32,754 nucleotides of DNA. Source: Spirogloea muscicola. Its lineage: Eukaryota; Streptophyta; Zygnematophyceae; Spirogloeales; Spirogloeaceae. Below, in pieces: positions 8,260 to 31,400 of this stretch (positions within the stretch are counted from its first letter, which is position 1; each line of letters starts with the position of its first letter). The stretch lies in assembly GCA_009602725.1 (NCBI GenBank), contig WELB01000003.1:112999-145752 (forward strand), written 5' to 3'. Below the pieces are notes generated by a model. The model was not told where the DNA came from. It saw only the letters and a list, made by a program, of their open reading frames with translations, and ran no database searches. The translations under genes and the position numbers were made by a program.

Positions 8260-8260
8260 N
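8260..8260. other. N at a likely assembly join
   Basis: A single N separates the very GC-rich 5' end of the minus-strand VTT gene from unrelated repeat-rich DNA on the right. The gene's reading frame is still open when it reaches the N. This may be a collapsed gap rather than one ambiguous base. Confidence 0.6.
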
Positions 8261-11285: not shown

Positions 11286-19509
<8,224 letters not shown>

Positions 19510-19857: not shown

Positions 19858-22800
19858 CTACTCTACATTTGCAGCTTGCTCCCGCAGATGTTCTATTGCC
19901 TGCTTCATTCTGAGGCCCAGTTGAGTCAAAGCCATATCAGCAGCCTGCACAAGCAGCGTGTCGTGCTTAGCAAGCTGTACATGCCAAGTACTCAGGCAGG
20001 GCAGGTGAGATTGCACCAGCAAGTTCTGGAGGATGCTCAAGCAGGAGCCAAGGATCTGAAGCATTCAGATCCAAGTTCAAGCTCTGGGACTTTGACTACT
20101 GGGTTAGAGCCATCTGCCATTTGCAACTTGCCTTCGAGCAAAGCGTGTTGGCCTCTCTGTGAAGCTCCCGTGTCAAGAACTCCAGTGACCTCCCTACACG
20201 TATCACTTCCTGGAGGGGCCTGGCACACGACCAGCGGTGCTCTTAGAGCTCCTGTGCGATGGTCACATCCAGCCTGTAGCAGTGCCTCAGGCAAGCTGCC
20301 TACCTGGACTGGCCCGGGCTGATCAGGAGCTCCTCTGCTGACTTCACATGTATCCGCAACCTGTCCAACTGACAGACAAGAAAGTGCAAGCAATAATGTG
20401 CAACTACAAGTGGAAACACAGTCCTCTATAGGTCAGAAGAGGCCAGTGGCCTGCCTCATAGATGGTCAATCTACATACAATGCTATGCAAGGTGGTGGTG
20501 TTTTGGATGTTAATTTCTTTCACGAGGATAGACTGATGAACTTGTCCACTAAACACCTTCCCCTACATGCGAGTGCAAGCAGCCAAAGTACTCTAGCTCC
20601 TAAGAACCCCCTAGCACTCACCTCTTCCCGTACATCCATGCGCGTAGCCAAGTACGCAGCCTCCTGCTCAAGCCTGCCACGGTCCAGCTCCAAGCCAGTC
20701 TCCAGGAGCTCCTCAACCTGCTCATCACAGACTGGCTGCTGAGCAAGCGAGGCTATGGCACTGATAAAGAATGTTATTGACAAAAGCACCTAACTCCCAG
20801 TAACATGCTTAGGTACATTTCCTCAGTACGTTTCCTGTGCAGGGATTTCTCTGCTCACTTGTGACCTCAGCTTCTCTTTCATGGCCTTGGGCTGCGCTTC
20901 AGCAAGCCGCGCAGCCTGATCCACCAGCACGGCAATCTCAGTCAGGTGGGAGCACAGGACGCTTGCCAGTCTCGTACCCTCGGCCCGGCGGCTCAAGGCC
21001 AGCTGCTCCAGAGAGGCCGCCATGCTGTCATAAGCAATGCCCAAGGGCCATGATGTACTTTGTGTTCTGCATCGCTACTGGTGTTTATATGATGCTCGTA
21101 TCAATTGCCATGCCAGTCCTACACTACCCTGCCTAGAAGCGCACAGCTTTTCTTGCTCGCGGCCTTACATCTGGTGGATCTGCCCCTAGCAGCCCAGTCC
21201 AACAATGGACATACCTTGCAGAGACAGCCTCCAGCTGTTGAATAACTTCACCATCCTGAGTACCAGAGTTTCTGCAGTCCACCCGATCTAAGATTCCCTG
21301 TCAGTCAGAACCTGTCGGTCAGGACAGATGCTCCCTATCAATCTCAATGGACGCCCTCTTTCTCTTGATGGGGACTGAGCTAGAAGACCCACTCCAGATA
21401 GCTCAGCATGCAGGACAACCTACAATCCATGTTGATGCTATGACTTACAGGCAGTCTCAAGATGCTGTCAGTTGTCAGAGGTGGGGAGAAAGCCAGCTGA
21501 GGCAGCTTCACTTCCAGAGCTTCCGCTGCCTCAAGGACCTGCCCACCATGATAGGAGCTGCTGAGAGGGCCTGATGCTGGCCTAGAAGCTCCAATCCTGA
21601 CATTATTACAAGAGGGCAACAGCATGGTACTTGTTTGAAATCTCTACTCATACCCTCACTATGAAGATCCATGAGTGGTGGAGTAAACGCCCTGTTCGGT
21701 ATTAGGCATGCAGAGATTCAGGCTATTCTCATGTGCCCTGACACAGGTGGAGCGAGGAATAGCATCAGAACCTGTCTGACGGCAGCCTCATTGATGACGA
21801 TTTTGCTTGCCTTATCTGCAACTTCTTCTGACTGCTACACGCAAGACGCGCCATTGAGAAGGTTCCTTAACTCTGCCCCTTCCAGCATGAAGCTGGAAGC
21901 GTGTCTTCATTGAAGAGGTATGGCATTTGTGGCAGAGCTGTGGCACCTGCAAGGTAAGGGTGGCGTTGATCGTCCCGCGCGCAAATTGCTGCTGTGCAGA
22001 AGTTGCAAGCGCCTGCTGGAGGCCCGAGATACTTGTCGGGCAGCCGGCACTTGACATCCAAAGTACGCCCATTGACGCTCCTCATCTGCATGACCAGCCC
22101 CAACTTATCTGCCTCATATCTTGCTGACGGCAAGGGATGTTCCATCAGTGATCACAGTAGACTAGTTGCAATTGACGCTGGAATGAATCATGAGCATGAT
22201 AAGCGGCTAAAGTTTTCTTATACATTAATCATCATCAGGGAGAAAGCAAAGAAGGTCAATGCAGGTACAAGAGAACAGCACCTCCCAGCACCATGTCAGC
22301 CCGTCCACACGACCCTCGGAGGTAGCAAACCCCGTCATGCCCGAGATACCAACATCGCCCGGCAGTGCTGCAGCTTGTCCCAGATTGTCACCATCCACCG
22401 GCCCAATGCCAGGTGTGACAGCAACGGGGACAGGCGGCAGTCTTTCGACACTCTGGTCGCACCCAACGACCACTGCCCACGGTCGGATCCACCACTTGAT
22501 CACCAGACCATTTAGCACGTATGGATCCCGTGCTGCAAACTGCTCCGCATCTGCATCCATGTTATCAGCTTAGCATCAATGTGCAATTGCATGTGAGACT
22601 GTTGCTCTCACATGGATGAGCTGCTTTGAGCAATACCAGCAGCAAGTGCACAATCTAAGATATTGTTCTTACCGCTAATGTGCCCGACATGGAAGACGAG
22701 GACGGCACTGTCAACTGGATCATGCAGTGGGCCACCTAGCAGGAGGTCGTCGCGGGCGACATGCTCCTGGCAGAGCGCCAAGTGCGCTGCACGGTGTGGC

Positions 22801-23838
22801 ACCCGCCTTTCCACAACGTTCTTGACGTACTCTGCGTGGTACAGCAGCCGCCTAACTATCAGGCTGGCCCTGGACTTCACTAGCTCCATACTGCGCCGTC
22901 AAAGTGCGAGCATGCCTTGATTCTGAGTCATTGACTTGATCAGCTGCTGGAGATCACATCTGTGAAAGAACCCGACTTAAGATCAGGAGCCGACACTGTC
23001 ATTGACTTGCTTGTACTAGTGTGGCTGATTTCTGCAAACGGCTGACAGCAAGTAGTGCCAGCCTTTTGAGGTCTAATTCGTCAGCCGCCAAGCCTTGGAC
23101 AATTTGCTGTCCTCTCCTTCTCGCTCTCGACAGGCAGCTTCTGCTTCACTGCTGGCTATAAGAAGCATGACAGCTGTGACATGGTTTTTGAGGAGAACGA
23201 TGTGCTGAAGAGAAGGTGCTGAGTCTGTGCCCTCGCTGCTGGCTGAGATGCTGACCCAGCAGACTGCGACCTGGACCTGTGACGGGCATGGAGCGTGGGC
23301 AGGAGTCCCCGCCTCAGGCTCATTGCTCGGACCACTTTTGACGCTTTTCTTGCCCCTTCGAATCTCTTGTTCTGGGCTGGCCAATTGCAGCCATCGCCCT
23401 CGAATGGAAGAGTTTTGTATTCAAAATCTTGGACTGTGAGCTTGGGCAGGAGGGAGCACTAAAGAGGGAGGGGGTAGAATCTGGGGGGTTGAGGAATACG
23501 ATTGAGGTTTCTGGTGATGGAAGTCCAAGTTATTTCCAGGACTCAAGGCTCAGAAGAAAGTGCTCGCACATTGAGAATAGGCTCAGAGGGGTCCAAGTCC
23601 AACGTGTAGAGTCCGAGGTCTAGGTTTCGGTTCAGGATGCGTTACCGTAAAAGAGCACGAAGTGCCGCCTGGCCCGCTCGCCACTGTCCGGCGGCGGTGC
23701 GGCGGTGGCAGAAACCGCCCTCGCTGGCGCCAATCTCGCGGCGGCGGCTCCGGCGCCGCTGTGGCCGCGGCTATGGCGGCAGTCGGCGTCCGCCAGCAGG
23801 CGCCGCGGCGGCGGCAGGCGGCGGGCGGCGGCGGCCAN
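19858..23838 (-). CDS. YCII domain fused to YicC-type endoribonuclease
   Basis: Twelve inferred exons (minus): 23838-23646, 22831-22673, 22550-22282, 22085-21947, 21834-21772, 21538-21449, 21297-21215, 21024-20859, 20738-20622, 20368-20304, 20189-20132, 19944-19858; about 495 residues. Residues 1-55, rich in Ala/Arg/Ser, look like an organelle transit peptide. A YCII domain (about 58-147) shows RHFVLFYEYVKNVVERR, LLLGGPLHDPVDSAVLVF and DPYVLNGLVIKWWIRPW. After a ~38-residue linker the YicC domain (about 186-495) is complete: ISGMTGFATSEG, WCWEMRSVNGRTLDVKCRLP, SKIVINEAAVRQ, RRAEGTRLASVLCSHLTEI, LDRGRLEQEAAYLATRMDV, LEFLTRELHREANTLCSK, QAIEHLREQAANVE-stop. Bacterial YicC/YloC proteins are metal-dependent endoribonucleases; YCII folds are small ferredoxin-like domains of unclear role. 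Exon 4 has one base too many (GGG at 22023-22025). The intron after exon 11 uses a GC donor (AAG|GCAAGT). The start assumes N 23838 is A. Confidence 0.88.
23551..23582. repeat. Hairpin-repeat fragment in intron 1 of the YCII-YicC gene
   Basis: AGAAGAAAGTGCTCGCACAT and the following TTGAGAATAGG match the left end of the ~60-bp hairpin repeat of the 8.4-10.6 kb island. A weaker relative (GGGCTGGCC ... CCCTCGAATGG) sits at about 23370-23408. Both lie in the ~810-bp first intron (22832-23645), the longest of this gene. Confidence 0.55.
23838..23838. other. N at a likely assembly join
   Basis: On the minus strand BRCA2 coding sequence runs right up to this N, and the first exon of the YCII-YicC gene begins at it (NTG GCC GCC, presumably ATG). 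Base composition also jumps from about 45% to over 80% GC. Missing sequence at this point is the simplest reading. Confidence 0.7.
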
Positions 23839-26800
23839 TGTCATGCTCAGATGCTCCCAAGTTAGATACACGTAATCGAAGCATAGGGGCAACATCACGG
23901 TCTCCAAGAAATTCATTGTCAAGTGCTTCTCGAACTGCTTCTTCTGCTTTTACATTTGCAAGTTCCTGTGAGATGAGAAGATGAGAAGCATTTAGTCAAA
24001 CAGCATGCCTTCAGGCTGTAGCGGAAGTGAGAGCATCAGTCCTCTGATCTGACAACTTACCTGTTGCTTAATTTGCAGAATAGGAGATCCTACATGCTGT
24101 GCAGGACGATCAAGTCCAGAGCATATTGGAGAGCAGTCACCTTGCTGTCCTCTTCATTTGGGTATCCTTCATCTGCTCCATCGTCGTCTTTCCTCAAATT
24201 CAGGAGGGTAGACTCGGCAATCCTTGCACGCCTGACAGTCAAGAAGTATGCAGGCACATAATGTATGACACCCTGGCAAAGCAAGGCGTGACGATCTGAT
24301 TGGCTTTATGTGATTGAGAATACTAGAAGTGAGGGCAGCCTTGCACTTCTTGGTCTGTCTTGGGTACTCGACTGGGAGGACAACTGAGTGAGCATGTTGA
24401 AAACGAATCTAGATTTGGAGCTCACCTCTCTTCGTGCTGACACCTGGCTACATCTTCAGCTTTCTCAGACCTCATGACCCCCTGTCCATTTGATTGCCTG
24501 CACAATTCAGGCTCTTATCGAATGAGCAGGAGTATGCCAGTGGTGAAGCTTGAACTCATCAGCCACCTGCAGATTTGCAGAGGATTTACCGCTGCCAGTA
24601 AAGCATGGGGTAAATGCGGGTCACAGTGACGATTGTTGACGAGATCACACCACCATCTTCTTTGACACGGTGTAAGGCTAGTGGAGGCATAGGCTGTTTG
24701 CCTGTCATTGACATTATGCAGTACATAAATTACTGCTCAGAAGGGCTCTCCGTCCCAACTCTGTGAAGCAACATCCATGAGCATCTTACACCAAAATGCA
24801 ATCTACGTGACACCAAGTCCGTTAAGGAATCCACACAAGGCAGTACATGCCCTCAGCAGGTCAATGAGGCAAATGGTTTGCATCATACAGAGGCCAAGCT
24901 TGTCCGCCCAGTGTGCCCGGTAAGTGCAATTCATGTGAAGCAGCAAGCAGGCTTCAGGATAGGCCTGCACAAAGTCAAATTATGTTGTCAGTTCTGTCGC
25001 ATGCCCTTGTGCTGATGACTGCATTTGTTGAGCACATCAGCACCACAATTGGCAGCCAGAATTTTGAGTAGGTATGACCTCCAAGGGTGGCAAACCCTCT
25101 GGACAACCTTGCAGCTCCGCTCTGCAAATCTGCATATGCAAAAACGTGACCTCAAGCTGTTGTCAGCCAGTCTTTCCTGAAAGACAAACACATCTTCAGT
25201 AGTAAAGTGCCAGGTGGTACTTGCTCTCACCCTCAATTTCTGTCCAATGAAGATTTTGCCTTGATGCAGCAAGTTTGTCAAGGGTGTATCTAAACGGCCC
25301 TTAATTTGGTACCTGCAAGAAGTGCTACAAGCATCAGTCATGCCACAATTCAGACACTGCCATGATTGAGATTGCAGCAGTACTACAACAAGATATCACA
25401 TAGGAAGCTTGGATCCAGTAGTGCGCAGGTGATAAGAGAGATGAAGAACTCACCAACCATCTGTGAGCAGAAGTACTGCACTTTCATGTACTGCACCTGC
25501 AAGATGTGGTATTATGTTAGCAATTCTCACTGAAGCGGTATAACCCTTAATAGGCACTTGTAAGAATTTTTACCTCCTGCTTGATTGATGGTGCTGCTTT
25601 CCTGTATAGCTGCAACACACAGAACCATATGACAGCCAGCAGGGGCGTCCTTCTCTGTTATCTTCCTCAAAATTGGTCGCTGTCCCATGTTGATCTCTCG
25701 ATTGTACCTTCATACCACACACAAGTATCAGAAAACATGACAGTAGTTCATGCCGAATATCAGTGAGATACATACGTGGCCTAGTAGGAGGGCATTGTAG
25801 TAATTTGTCAGCCAGCCTTTGAGTTGCCCTGTATGCTACAGTCTCAAAGCAAGCCAACCTGTAGCTGAGCTCATCAAAGACCCTCTGCTTGGTGAGGTAC
25901 TTTCCACCTAGATGCCGAGGAAAGCTGCGCTCATAGGAGGCAAGCTTCCACACTATCCACTTAAAGTGGTTTGCTGTCCACCTTATTCAGAAAAACTGCC
26001 CTAGGTCAGTGTGTATGTATTGCAGCCAGTGTGATTTGTGCATGAAAGGCTAGCTCCTTGCAGCTCATACTTGGTAATAGCTGCTGTAAGTTTGTTGTGC
26101 TCACTCAGACGTAGCAAGTTGAGGCAGTGCCCCTGTCAAAAGAAGGCTTTGCCTCATTTCTGCATGGCCTGCCGGATTGGAGTTGGGTCCATCAGATGCC
26201 CGGTAAAGAAGTGCAGCCTCACTGGTCATGTCTTGCACATCAACCGCCAAGCGACCAACCTGACAACAATATGTCTGCATTGTCAATAGCTCCATCTAAT
26301 CTGAAAAATCTCGCCGTGATAAATAGGAGGACTCCATTGAATTAGAAACTGTCAGTCTCCAAGGTCAAGCTTACCTCTTCACACTTCCTTGGGCTCTCAT
26401 CGAAGACACTCAGAATGCTGGGCCGCTGGCATTCGCAAGCAGAGCTCTCATAGAGAGGATGCAATTGGCGTGCCAACTTAGGAGAGGGAATGAGTGGATG
26501 ACTTGGTTGCTGCATACACTCTGTGCTTGAAGCCGAAGGCACTTGTAAAGTGATAGAATCAACTTGGTTGTCTGGGGTCTTCAACAAATCCTCTGTGCAT
26601 TTTGGACCAAGAACGCTGGAGTGGCCTGGTGAAACGTCATCCACGGAGCTTGAAGCTCTTGCACTTGCTTGTGGAAGCCGATTGGCCTCCAGGCTTACCT
26701 GAGGGGAACTGAATCTGCTAATTCGCAGACACAGAATGGCACATAAGTGTAGACAGTTGACACAGCAATACAGCAGTGACCCTCTAACCAGCAACTGTGA

Positions 26801-28421
26801 TGCATTATAGTTAAACCCCAGTCAAGTGTCCAAGCAAGACAAAGTGGTAGACAGGCATACATAACTTTCCAGAAGGTGTATACCTCAGTCGCCGCGGCCT
26901 TTTGAACATCGTGATACAAGAGTGAGGCATTTTTGAGACTTTCATAGATTTTGGTCTGCAGTCTTCGTGTATCTGAAACTGCTGCTTTTGGAGCTTTGAT
27001 GTCTTACTTGGTCCCTCCTGTACGCTGTCAGGCAGCAATTCTCTCGCTCTTCCCAAAGCTGAGGTTGATGAGTGTTCAGGCACATCTAAGTCCGTCTTGA
27101 AGAAGCTGGCATGGCTAGCTGGCAACGATGTGCCATGTTTAGAAATTGTTTTAGCCTTTGGAGCTCGGTCTTGTACGAGCTTATCATCACCATGGCTTTC
27201 ATCTTGTTCCAGCAATCTCTTGGCTCTCGCCAGAGAATCTGCTGACACTGAAAGTGATAGGCCTGAGGCAGTACTGAACATTGTTGGAGCCTTGCTTATC
27301 GAGTTCCTCCAAGAATAGGTGCCCTCAGGGCTTCCAGGCCTTACATCCTTGGTAGAATCTTGGAGGATGCAGTCTGCAACATCTTGCTCCTTCTGATCAG
27401 AATCATCAGCATTATTCAGCAAACATCTAGCTCTCTTCAGTGATGCCTCTGAAACCTCAATCGTGCGGCCGGATCCTGAGGTGAACATGCTCATGCTCTT
27501 GAGCTGCTGTTTAGCATTTTCTGGTTGTAACCAATTGGCATCTGCCATTCCTGTCTTGAAATCAGATAGAGGCTCATGAAGAGCATCCGCTTCTCCCTCC
27601 TCATCACATTGTAGAATCTCGTGTGCTCTTCTCTTGGCTGCAGCTGACACTCTGATAGGTATCCCAGAGCCGGTCTTGAAGATGCCAGCAGCCTTCCCTT
27701 GTCCAAACAAACACGCTTCTGTATCATCTGCACTCTTCGCGGCTTGATAAGCCACTTCTTCTGGGGATTCGCTTGTACCTGTGCCATGCCATACTTGGAC
27801 CGTGGACATCCTTTTGGCATCATCTCTGAGGACCTGGTCTTGTTGTTGATTGTGACTTGATGCCAGCTGCAAGTCTCTGAGCGAGTTGTATGATGACAAG
27901 CTTGCCGTGCTCGCCGTGTGACAATTGCTCGTCGTGTGGCGGCTGTCCTCCGTATATGTATCATGCCAGAGCGCCTTGGCTTCCCGGAGCTTTCTCTTAG
28001 CAGCGTCCCATGCTGCAGCCGAGGGCTGCAACGAGTCGGTTGCACCACATGTATGGCTTACTCTGAAACATGATGGCAGCTCTTGAACAACAGAAAGTAG
28101 ATCCACATTCTGCTCAGAGGTTTGAGTCGCCAGCTGGGGGGACGGCGGCGAACGACGTGAAGGCGAAGCTCTATTCGTAAGGCAGCAGTCGTATTTGACC
28201 TGTTCCAGCCCCAGCCAGTGAGCGTCCCGTTCGCTAGGAGCAGCAATCGGTTGGGCAACGAAATGCGCCCGGGCAACCGACCGCGCCGGAGGCGTCCGCT
28301 GGAGCTTCCAAGTCACTCCATCTTCCGCCAGGCCGACCTCGAATGTGCACAACGCTCGGTAGCCGCTACTTTGCGAGCAGTGTGGCCTTGGCGCCGCTCC
28401 GCTGCCGACGCCCGCCATCAT
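23839..28421 (-). CDS. BRCA2: BRCA2 homologue, 3' end missing at the N
   Basis: BRCA2 loads RAD51 on single-stranded DNA during homologous recombination. Fifteen exons (minus) are inferred: 28421-26884, 26714-26375, 26259-26105, 25981-25859, 25707-25574, 25496-25454, 25312-25231, 25176-25151, 25121-25079, 24964-24889, 24701-24590, 24497-24426, 24231-24141, 24096-24061 and 23965-23839; about 1,000 residues. Three clear BRC repeats lie at residues 248-270 (FKTGSGIPIRVSAAAKRRA), 313-335 (FTSGSGRTIEVSEASLKRA) and 382-404 (FSTASGLSLSVSADSLARA), plus degenerate ones near 118 and 441. MFKRPRR (505-511) matches the plant FKRPR block. The helical domain has WTANHFKWIVWKLASYERSF. OB1 has LLLTDGWYQIKGRLDTPL, AELQGCPEGLPPLEAYPEAC and YRAHWADKLGL. 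A Tower-like stretch follows, and the sequence stops in OB2 at LRLRVSNLGASEHD. The remaining OB2/OB3, about 250-300 residues, is absent. Confidence 0.9.
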
Positions 28422-28475
28422 CTCCGGGAGCGCGCAGCAACCGCCCTGCTCGCTGCCAGTGCCACGAGAGAATGA
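28422..28475. promoter_or_regulatory. Very short divergent interval between BRCA2 and the TIC-like gene
   Basis: Only ~54 bp separate the BRCA2 ATG (28421, minus) from the first base of the open TIC-like frame (28476, plus). If both models start here, a single small CpG-rich bidirectional promoter serves both, with each 5' UTR overlapping the other gene. The TIC-like start is uncertain, so the interval could be wider or the genes could overlap. Confidence 0.35.
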
Positions 28476-31400
28476 CGATCACCAGGCGCTGGCGTCAGCT
28501 GCGGCTGCGGCAGCGACGGCGGAGTCGGCGGCGGCGGCGGTGGCGGCGGCGGCGGCGGCTCGCAGCAGGCTGCTGCTGCCGCTGCGGCGGCTGCAGGGAG
28601 CAGCCTCTCGCAGCAGTACCTGCAGCAGTTTGCGATAATGCAGCAGGCTGGCGGCTTCTCATTCGGCTTCCCGCCTGCGCACTTTGGCCACCCGACATTT
28701 GGCAGCCCGGCTGCGCACATGGGGGCCCCAGTACGTACTGCAACCCGTCATGCTTCGTGTCTCTTTGCCCTCATCAAACTCGCCAACATAACCAATGTTA
28801 ATTTAACACGTGATTGCAACAAACTTGTGTGCATGTCTTCAGTGTACCGGGCTTCTACTGTGCTTCCTAATCTCCTGCATGGGCTCTGCTCCAGGCGGCG
28901 CAATTTTTCAGCAATCCATTCTACAGTGCGAACATGCACACGCACCTACTCCAGCAGCAGCAGGCACAGCAGGCGCAGCAGGCGCAGCAGGCGCAGCAAG
29001 CTCAGGAGCAGGCGCAGGCGCAGGCACAGGGGCAGGGGCAGGGGCAGGGGCAGGCGCAGGGCCAGGCGCAGGGCCAGGCGCCGGGCCAGGGCCAGGGCCA
29101 GCCAGTGGCGTCGCCCTCGCCGCAGCAGCAGCAGCAGCAAGCAGCGCACAGGCAGTCGCCGCCTCAGCAGCCACGGCAGGGCCCCGCAGCGGCCAGTTTC
29201 GCGCCACACAGCCGGGGTTTTACGTCGCTGCACCAGCAGCAGCAGCCGCCGCAGCATCACGAGCCCCATGCGCCGGCCTCGCCTTCGCAGAGGCAGCAGG
29301 GGGAGTCTCCGAAGCACCAGCAGCAGCAGCTTGGCAGGCCGGAGATGGATGGAGACGGAGGTGAGAGAGAGAAGGAGAAGGACAGGCGAGAGAGCCCGGC
29401 AGCCAGCGAGAAGGTTGTCTCGTCCATCCTCCAGCGGGGCATCCAGTCTTCCAGCGCGCCCGTGCTGCCGCCACCGTCGCCAGGAGCAGAGCAGCAGATG
29501 ATGCTGCAGGTGCTGAAGCAAGCAGGGAAGCAGCAGCTGCAGCAGCAGCAGCAGCAGCAACAGCAAGTGCCACAGCAGCTCCAGGGCTTCCACAAGGACA
29601 GCGGCGGCGGCGGCAGCGTGCCCACTCCGATGCCGCCCTCCACGAGCGGCAAGAGTATGGGGCACGGCCCGGGGCCGCTCGGCCTTCCCCCGGTGGCGGC
29701 CATGATGGCACCGCAGGGCCACGCCATGCTTCAGGGCGCCGGCTCATCTTCGATGTCGGTCTCAGACGCCGTCGCGCCTGGCCTGCAACAGCAGCAGCAG
29801 CAGCAGCAGCAACGAGGCGGCCGTAGTGGCTCCTCCTTGGAGCCAGAGAAGGAGGCTGACGGCAGGAGCGAGGGGCCATCCGGTGGCAACCGGCGGCCCC
29901 CAGAGGAGGGCAGCGGCAGCGGTGGCGGTGGTGGGGGCGGAGGCGGCGGAGGCTCCAGCCGGAGTCACCGCGAGGCCGATGGCAACCACCACAGAATGGT
30001 GGTGGTCAAGCCGCCGCGGCAGGAGCGGAATGGCACGCAGTCCATGGCGGCCTCCCGCGGCTCACAGGGGTCGCTGGCCACGAGGGATCGGGTGGAGGCT
30101 GATGGCCATGCTGTGGGCGGAGGCGCTGCTACCGGGGTCAAGGGGATGGCAAGCCTGACTGCGGCAAGTACATTGGCGGCGGGGTCTGTGCCATCGCTGG
30201 CCACGCGGGCGCTGTTGACGGGCGAGGGAATGGGCAGGGGTGCCGCGCTGCCTACGTTGCTGCAGTCCACGGTGGCCTCCTCCAAGTCCATGCCAGCGAC
30301 GCCGCACTCCTCTGCTGCTCTTTCTGTGACAGCGCCTGGCACGCCGCAGCACCAGAAGTCTGTCGCGCGTGGAGCCAAGGCCGTGGCCGCAGCCGGCACA
30401 TCTCCAGGCGGCCCTGCCTCGCCTTCCGAGGGGCCTGCCAGGCCGGGGTCCCTGGCTCCCGCCCCCCTGGGCCAGCTGCCTCCGCTGCGGCTCACGCCAG
30501 GTCCCACGCCATCGACGCTGGCAGGGGCGCAGGCGGTTCTTGCAGCAGCCATGTCCAACGCCGGCAAGCAGGCGCAGCACCGGAGCCTGCCCATCGGCAA
30601 CGCACCGGTGGCGCTCTTGAAGCCATCCACTGCTGGCCATGGCCCGCACGCGGTGCCGGCCGCCGGCAAGGCCAGCAAGGGGCCGCTCAAGCTGCCCCCC
30701 ACTGCCGCGGCCAAGAAGGGGCTCCATGCCCTCCCACACCAGCCGCCCGGGCACCTACCAGCGCCGCCACAGGCGCTCGCGTCGGGCCCTGCCTCAACAG
30801 GCTCGGTCATGAGAGGTATGCAGCCAGTGCAGAATGGCACTGGAGCACCGTCTTCAGGTGCCCACGGGAGGGGCAGCGTGAGCGGCAGCACGGCTCTGCC
30901 AGACGTGAAGCCGGGGAGGGGGAGCTTGAGTGCCCAGATCTCGTCAGCGACGCCGCCCCAGTCGTTGGCATCAGCCACGCCGCCAAAGGGAGCTCCTTCC
31001 TCTCCGGTGCCTGCCTCCACCTCGCAGAGGTCGCCGGTGCATCCTCTGTACCGGTCTCCTGGGCAGATGGCAGCGTCCTCAACAACACCTCCAGGTGGCA
31101 CATCACCGTCACCTGCGGGTGCTGCTGCGTCGGGCGCAAAAGCGGTGCAGCTTGCAGCTGCCGAAACATCCGGTGCCAAGAGCTTGAAAGGTTCAGCCCT
31201 CCATCCTAAATCTCATCTATGTCAAGGAGGAGGTCGAACTCGTGGCCGTACTCGTGTTGATTCCTCTTAGTCTTTGGCGCTATCTGCCCGTGCTTTGAGC
31301 TTGTAAGCTCGCTGGTCAGCATGCTCACAGGGCCAATCTTGCTGTGCAGAAGCAGATGCCGACCAGGCAAAATTCCTCGGTCAGCGGTCCACCTCTGCAC

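Follow-up and report, generated by a model that had tools for sequence, protein, structure and literature searches.

Introduction

YicC and YloC proteins belong to a recently recognised ribonuclease (RNase) family that is conserved across bacteria and whose function and native substrates are described as still unknown (PMC10793500). The Escherichia coli enzyme is reported to be a hexamer, a dimer of trimers that closes on RNA, and to lose its activity when M5, N28, R30, E216, E217, F244, R251, E252, R280, or E281 is replaced by alanine (PMC10793500). Fusions of YciI, a protein of the YCII type, have been reported with a sigma-70 domain in Caulobacter vibrioides and with BolA in Coxiella burnetii (PMC7641849). 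The gene considered here lies in a 32,754-nucleotide (nt) stretch of Spirogloea muscicola DNA (contig WELB01000003.1; the whole stretch is hereafter called the window), the minus strand of which carries, between 23838 and 19858, a YCII domain followed by a complete YicC. It resembles the fusions of C. vibrioides and C. burnetii in that YciI is joined to a protein of gene expression, and differs from them in the partner (PMC7641849).

The titles and abstract openings of the literature matches listed for YicC, YloC, DUF1732, and YCII/YciI hold neither a eukaryotic YicC nor a YCII-YicC fusion, and the only item among those matches to name YicC and YciI together is an E. coli promoter study. The window protein is like the YicC/YloC family (RNase CS; TIGR00255, PF03755 plus PF08340) in matching it over the full length, at residues 186–504, whereas it is unlike the bacterial members in that its gene is intron-rich and nuclear and carries an additional N-terminal YCII domain and leader. 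Judged from its sequence, this eukaryotic YCII-YicC fusion is real and probably functional, with a YicC part that is alphaproteobacterial-like.

Domain Content and Linkage

When the exons were joined and one base was dropped from exon 4, the predicted protein was recognised by Pfam as YCII at residues 60–142 (6.9e-7, 30.1 bits, cut-off 24), YicC_N at residues 186–351 (1.4e-29, 103.9 bits, cut-off 25), and YicC_C at residues 383–504 (2.9e-29, 102.1 bits, cut-off 27), with the two YicC domains in order and both above their cut-offs. The NCBIfam model TIGR00255 was also passed (175.7 bits against a cut-off of 167.5), and among PDB entries the E. coli YicC structures 8ver, 8ves, and 8hvj matched residues 186–504 at about 1e-27. 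Together with the retained essential residues described below, these matches support the completeness of the YicC part, as originally predicted. The PDB match of the HI0828 YciI protein (1mwq) to residues 58–143 is weak (0.0012); exon 2 taken alone scores 13.8 bits for YCII, below the cut-off of 24, and exon 3 taken alone matched no Pfam family.

The linkage of the two domains does not depend on splicing, given that exon 3 passes from the end of YCII through a 38-codon linker to the start of YicC in one frame, as the original prediction had it. This coding frame is the only one of the three that is free of stops over the exon (the other two contain four and one), and the linker includes no methionine. 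It is very improbable that the fusion is only apparent, a YCII gene and a neighbouring YicC gene, the latter starting at the methionine of the motif MTGF in exon 3, being connected by an open linker. That methionine does stand at a usable place and 38 open codons could arise by chance, but the YCII frame reaches YicC without a stop whereas the other frames are interrupted, exon 3 is spliced in phase at both ends, and the MTGF methionine (M189) corresponds to E. coli M5, an internal residue. As a fused gene, the locus would be expressed as one transcript that carries both domains.

Gene Model and the Exon 4 Frameshift

Reconstruction on the minus strand recovered the twelve exons of the original prediction, separated by 11 introns of 84–814 nt, of which ten have GT-AG borders and one, that following exon 11 (19945–20131), has GC-AG. 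Three donors of the GTGC/GTTC type are weak (gtgctg, gtgcca, and gttctg, after exons 3, 4, and 5), and GC content is 0.47–0.79 in exons versus 0.43–0.61 in introns. Exons 1–3, which total 621 nt, are in phase. The introns, together with an SMC5-like fragment elsewhere in the window, support a eukaryotic nuclear origin of the locus.

The matching of phases that had been claimed for all exons fails at one place, inside exon 4, which is 139 nt long. The frame of exon 3 runs on into the first half of exon 4 (MRSVNGRTLDVKCRLPDKY) and that of exon 5 fits the second half (LQQALATSAQQQFARGTINATLTLQ), the two being offset by one base. Owing to this net one-base frameshift, the window as written encodes no full-length protein, and splicing as written leads to stops after exon 4, which weighs against a functional gene. 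Removal of one G from the GGG at 22025–22023 restores an uninterrupted frame of 504 residues, in place of the approximately 495 first estimated, and a one-base sequencing or assembly error is the most likely cause of the frameshift. A decaying copy or pseudogene in which the frameshift is real is improbable: the frameshift is indeed present in the sequence as given, but the lesion comes to only one base, close to a run of GGG, no other exon breaks the phase, and none of the ten catalytic residues is lost. A 40-nt GT...AG segment in exon 4, found by eye, would likewise restore the frame if removed, and was rejected as an intron because its removal would take out a conserved stretch, RLP (R in 109, L in 100, and P in 117 of 118 YicC sequences) and because it is far shorter than the introns of the model.

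Catalytic Residues of the YicC Part

In an alignment with E. coli YicC and 117 other sequences, the window YicC is identical to the E. coli enzyme at all ten of the positions essential for its activity; given this identity, the YicC part is likely to be an active endoribonuclease. Unlike E. coli YicC, the window protein has insertions in the middle region and an arginine at the Gln247 position (residue 464, exon 11), and this arginine is a point against activity, glutamine being invariant there in the 118 other YicC sequences. The Q247A mutant of E. coli YicC is reported to be active (PMC10793500).

Ancestry of the YicC Part

A scan of a bacterial and archaeal collection, using patterns derived partly from E. 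coli, confirmed at least 455 relatives, of which 80 were kept. The top 11 of these are alphaproteobacterial by title, at 35–41% identity, and the other 69 (L012–L080) are taken from titles and recall to be gammaproteobacterial, the titles of L071 and L077 naming no class. Among 38 records of the plasmid collection, seven Azospirillum records stand at the top, at 39–40%. In a similarity set of 83 alphaproteobacterial, 69 gammaproteobacterial, and 7 other sequences, from which two viral-contig rows were excluded, median identity to the window YicC is 0.393, 0.338, and 0.247, and best identity 0.440, 0.390, and 0.300, respectively, while the corresponding profiles give the window YicC 285, 207, and 159 bits. 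It carries 17 of 31 residues diagnostic of alphaproteobacteria and none of the 32 diagnostic of gammaproteobacteria. By similarity, the affinity of the YicC part is with alphaproteobacteria.

Trees mostly agree with this placement. A 62-row tree (the window, 43 alphaproteobacteria, 15 of the 69 gammaproteobacteria, and three Bacillota) sets the window beside the 43 alphaproteobacteria at 100/99 (bootstrap not quite settled) and outside all of them, the alphaproteobacterial branch itself reaching only 82/43. A 55-row set was prepared by removing six long or compositionally odd rows (four alphaproteobacteria and two from other phyla) and then using every second alphaproteobacterium, and was analysed under a simpler model; it comprises the window, 37 alphaproteobacteria, 12 gammaproteobacteria, and five others. 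Its best tree places the window with the alphaproteobacteria (log-likelihood −25320.9; approximately unbiased (AU) test, p 0.646), and the tree with the window as sister of all alphaproteobacteria is 6.8 log units worse (AU p 0.455). Two results count against an alphaproteobacterial placement. The AU test keeps the window with the other phyla (p 0.244, 23.8 log units worse) and the window with the gammaproteobacteria (p 0.209, 30.7 worse), and a 97-row tree, made of the window, 77 of the 83 alphaproteobacteria, 12 of the 69 gammaproteobacteria, and seven rows of other phyla that are distant outgroups, groups the window with its 12 gammaproteobacteria at 94/90 (bootstrap unsettled). A tree better by 39 log units, uniting the 77 alphaproteobacteria without the window, escaped the search behind the 97-row tree. 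The YicC part is thus probably alphaproteobacterial by similarity, with the trees mostly in agreement and no rival placement excluded by the AU tests.

A survey of 142 genomes of the class of Maricaulis and 14 control genomes found YicC_N in 76 of the former (75 over the cut-off) and in five of the latter. A locus was obtained from 70 of the 76, the remaining six including the genomes of relatives L001 and L004. In Synechococcus elongatus, the sole cyanobacterial control, YicC_N was not found, though YCII matched there. On account of the alphaproteobacterial look of YicC and of this missing match, mitochondrial descent of the YicC part is favoured over cyanobacterial descent, which is disfavoured on the thin evidence of one cyanobacterium. 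A later gain by horizontal transfer, with an alphaproteobacterium or some other bacterium as donor, is possible though the less probable account, and the enzyme may then act in the plastid or cytosol. It is in keeping with the AU test, which does not separate the window as sister of all alphaproteobacteria (p 0.455) from the window anywhere with them (p 0.646), with gammaproteobacteria, or with other phyla, and the patchy occurrence of PRK12866-type YCII in bacteria suggests a separate source. The 62-row tree, however, sets the window outside all 43 alphaproteobacteria (albeit with that branch at 82/43), and 11 introns suggest long residence in the genome, both of which speak against such a later gain.

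The YCII Part and the Search for the Fusion Elsewhere

The YCII part is like PRK12866 (NF009508), PF03795, and HI0828 in that it lies above the Pfam cut-off and retains His and DPYV, both invariant across five aligned sequences. Unlike PRK12866 YciI proteins, it is fused and not free-standing, and it falls just below the equivalog cut-off of NF009508 (101.7 bits against 108), a shortfall that tells against its assignment as a PRK12866-type protein. Three bacterial PRK12866 proteins, drawn from plasmid records as three of a set of seven, score 128.1–151.3 bits and are 43–46% identical to the window YCII. No PRK12866-type YCII over the cut-off was found in the 142 genomes of the class of Maricaulis or in 200 genomes of one phylum.

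Among 117 yicC loci, no YCII frame of at least 70 amino acids was found near yicC within the DNA kept, nor did the bacterial genes covered there include the fused form. These loci comprised the 80 relatives kept (up to 6 kb per side) together with 2 viral-contig, 30 YicC_N-survey, and 5 plasmid loci (with less flanking DNA). In all four annotated plasmid records checked, yicC is followed closely downstream by gmk, two of the records having one small gene in between. Of the scans of viral contigs, that with whole-protein patterns gave no match, that with the YicC alignment gave two relatives from 31 stretches, and that with the YCII alignment confirmed none of 57 stretches. Comparison of the window DNA with plasmids returned only a 2% stretch, in exon 1, in three records.

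The YCII part may keep an enzyme activity of its own, which the fusion would couple to RNA cleavage by co-location only. Retention of His and DPYV is consistent with this, as is the precedent of TftG, described as a YCII dehydrochlorinase with a conserved His-Asp dyad (PMC7641849); however, a substrate or pathway link was not found and no YCII frame lies near yicC at any of the 117 loci, and the proposal is considered unlikely.

Leader, Start Codon, and the Adjoining BRCA2 Gene

The window contains two Ns, at 8260 and 23838, and the ATG of the gene model requires that N23838 be A. Directly upstream on the same strand (23838–28478) is a BRCA2 gene, not noted in the original prediction, that stops at this N and matches the BRCA2 repeat (5.8e-17), the helical domain (8.2e-13), and OB1 (0.00013, below the cut-off); its last visible coding piece (23841–23995) matched no Pfam family. 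We take this piece to be where the final OB fold begins, entering the N mid-exon, with the end of the gene thus missing. The absence of the BRCA2 end from the window and the break at N23838 suggest that this N is probably a contig or assembly join. Across the junction, GC content steps from 0.38 (23900–24000) via 0.65 to 0.78 (23700–23800).

With the start codon on the N and BRCA2 breaking off there, the leader and true start are tentative, and a start-codon base that is itself an N, beside a broken gene, speaks against the 5′ end of the model. The predicted leader has 58 residues, with 18 Ala, 11 Arg, 4 Ser, and a net charge of +7, a composition loosely compatible with organelle import and favouring neither mitochondrion nor plastid. 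Its modest helical moment (0.40), without a strong amphipathic helix, is a further point against import. Of the plastid or mitochondrial role suggested by the original prediction, the mitochondrial side is favoured, by YicC ancestry only, and the leader, Arg-rich and beginning at an N, is at most a candidate targeting signal. A second possible start, located in intron 1 (MELVKSRASLIVRRLLYHA, its frame running on into exon 2), was rejected as the main start; it lacks the first YCII strand, which comes from exon 1.

Features of the Window

The features of the gene model are collected in Table 1.

Table 1. Exons of the YCII-YicC gene model and the single N at its 5′ end, in window coordinates.
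Feature	Coordinates	Strand	Basis
Exon 1: leader rich in Ala/Arg, then first YCII strand (HFVLFY)	23646–23838	−	First base is N23838; YCII/PRK12866 match begins at residue 59–60
Exon 2: middle of YCII	22673–22831	−	GT-AG borders, phase fits; Pfam YCII on joined protein
Exon 3: YCII end, 38-residue linker (22461–22348), YicC start	22282–22550	−	Single open frame
Exon 4: N-terminal region of YicC, with the net frameshift of one base near GGG 22025–22023	21947–22085	−	Halves fit YicC in different frames
Exon 5: YicC	21772–21831	−	Splice model
Exon 6: YicC	21449–21538	−	Splice model
Exon 7: YicC	21215–21297	−	Splice model
Exon 8: YicC, N-terminal domain end and middle region	20859–21024	−	Splice model
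Exon 9: YicC C-terminal domain, E216/E217 equivalents at exon end	20622–20738	−	Splice model, Pfam, alignment
Exon 10: YicC C-terminal domain	20304–20368	−	Splice model
Exon 11: F244, R251, and E252 equivalents; GC-AG intron next	20132–20219	−	Splice model, alignment
Exon 12: R280 and E281 equivalents and stop codon	19858–19944	−	Splice model, alignment
Single N at start codon, also the point at which upstream BRCA2 is cut off	23838–23838		Probable assembly join

Elsewhere in the window, an SMC5-like coding fragment lies on the plus strand at 12453–12881 (PDB 9lwi, E 1.1e-7; no Pfam match), and a 799-codon open frame rich in Gln/Ala/Gly/Pro repeats occupies 28871–31267 of the same strand. The N at 8260 is in a GC-rich stretch and may be a further join. 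The window gave no match to Rfam at gathering cut-offs, and a tRNA scan found none.

Proposed Mechanism and Significance

The reading that we hold to be moderately probable is that of a nuclear YCII-YicC gene in which a YicC of alphaproteobacterial descent, most simply from the mitochondrial ancestor, is probably an active organellar RNase and YCII is a pairing or ligand module. Its product would be a single protein in which an N-terminal leader is followed by a YCII domain of the YciI-like (PRK12866) type, then a flexible linker, and finally a complete YicC, the gene for which would have had an alphaproteobacterial source, the mitochondrial ancestor being the simplest. The YicC part is predicted to be a divalent-cation-dependent clamshell RNase that works as a hexamer, a dimer of trimers, in an organelle, more likely the mitochondrion than the plastid, and the YCII part probably pairs subunits or has a His/Asp pocket that takes up a small ligand, thereby tuning how the clamshell opens or assembles. 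YCII proteins form dimers, and such a domain at every N-terminus could link subunits across the two trimers, which would limit or promote clamshell closing, possibly with a ligand bound in the pocket. The more specific proposal that the eukaryote kept the YicC of the mitochondrial ancestor as a nuclear gene, and that a dimerising YCII ties the two trimers together to give a ligand-gated organellar RNase, is speculative and, taken whole, doubtful.

If the broader reading is true, an active eukaryotic YicC whose ancestry appears alphaproteobacterial would imply a step of RNA cutting, probably in an organelle, that has yet to be described, and its fusion to YCII would offer a handle on the possible regulation of the clamshell RNase.

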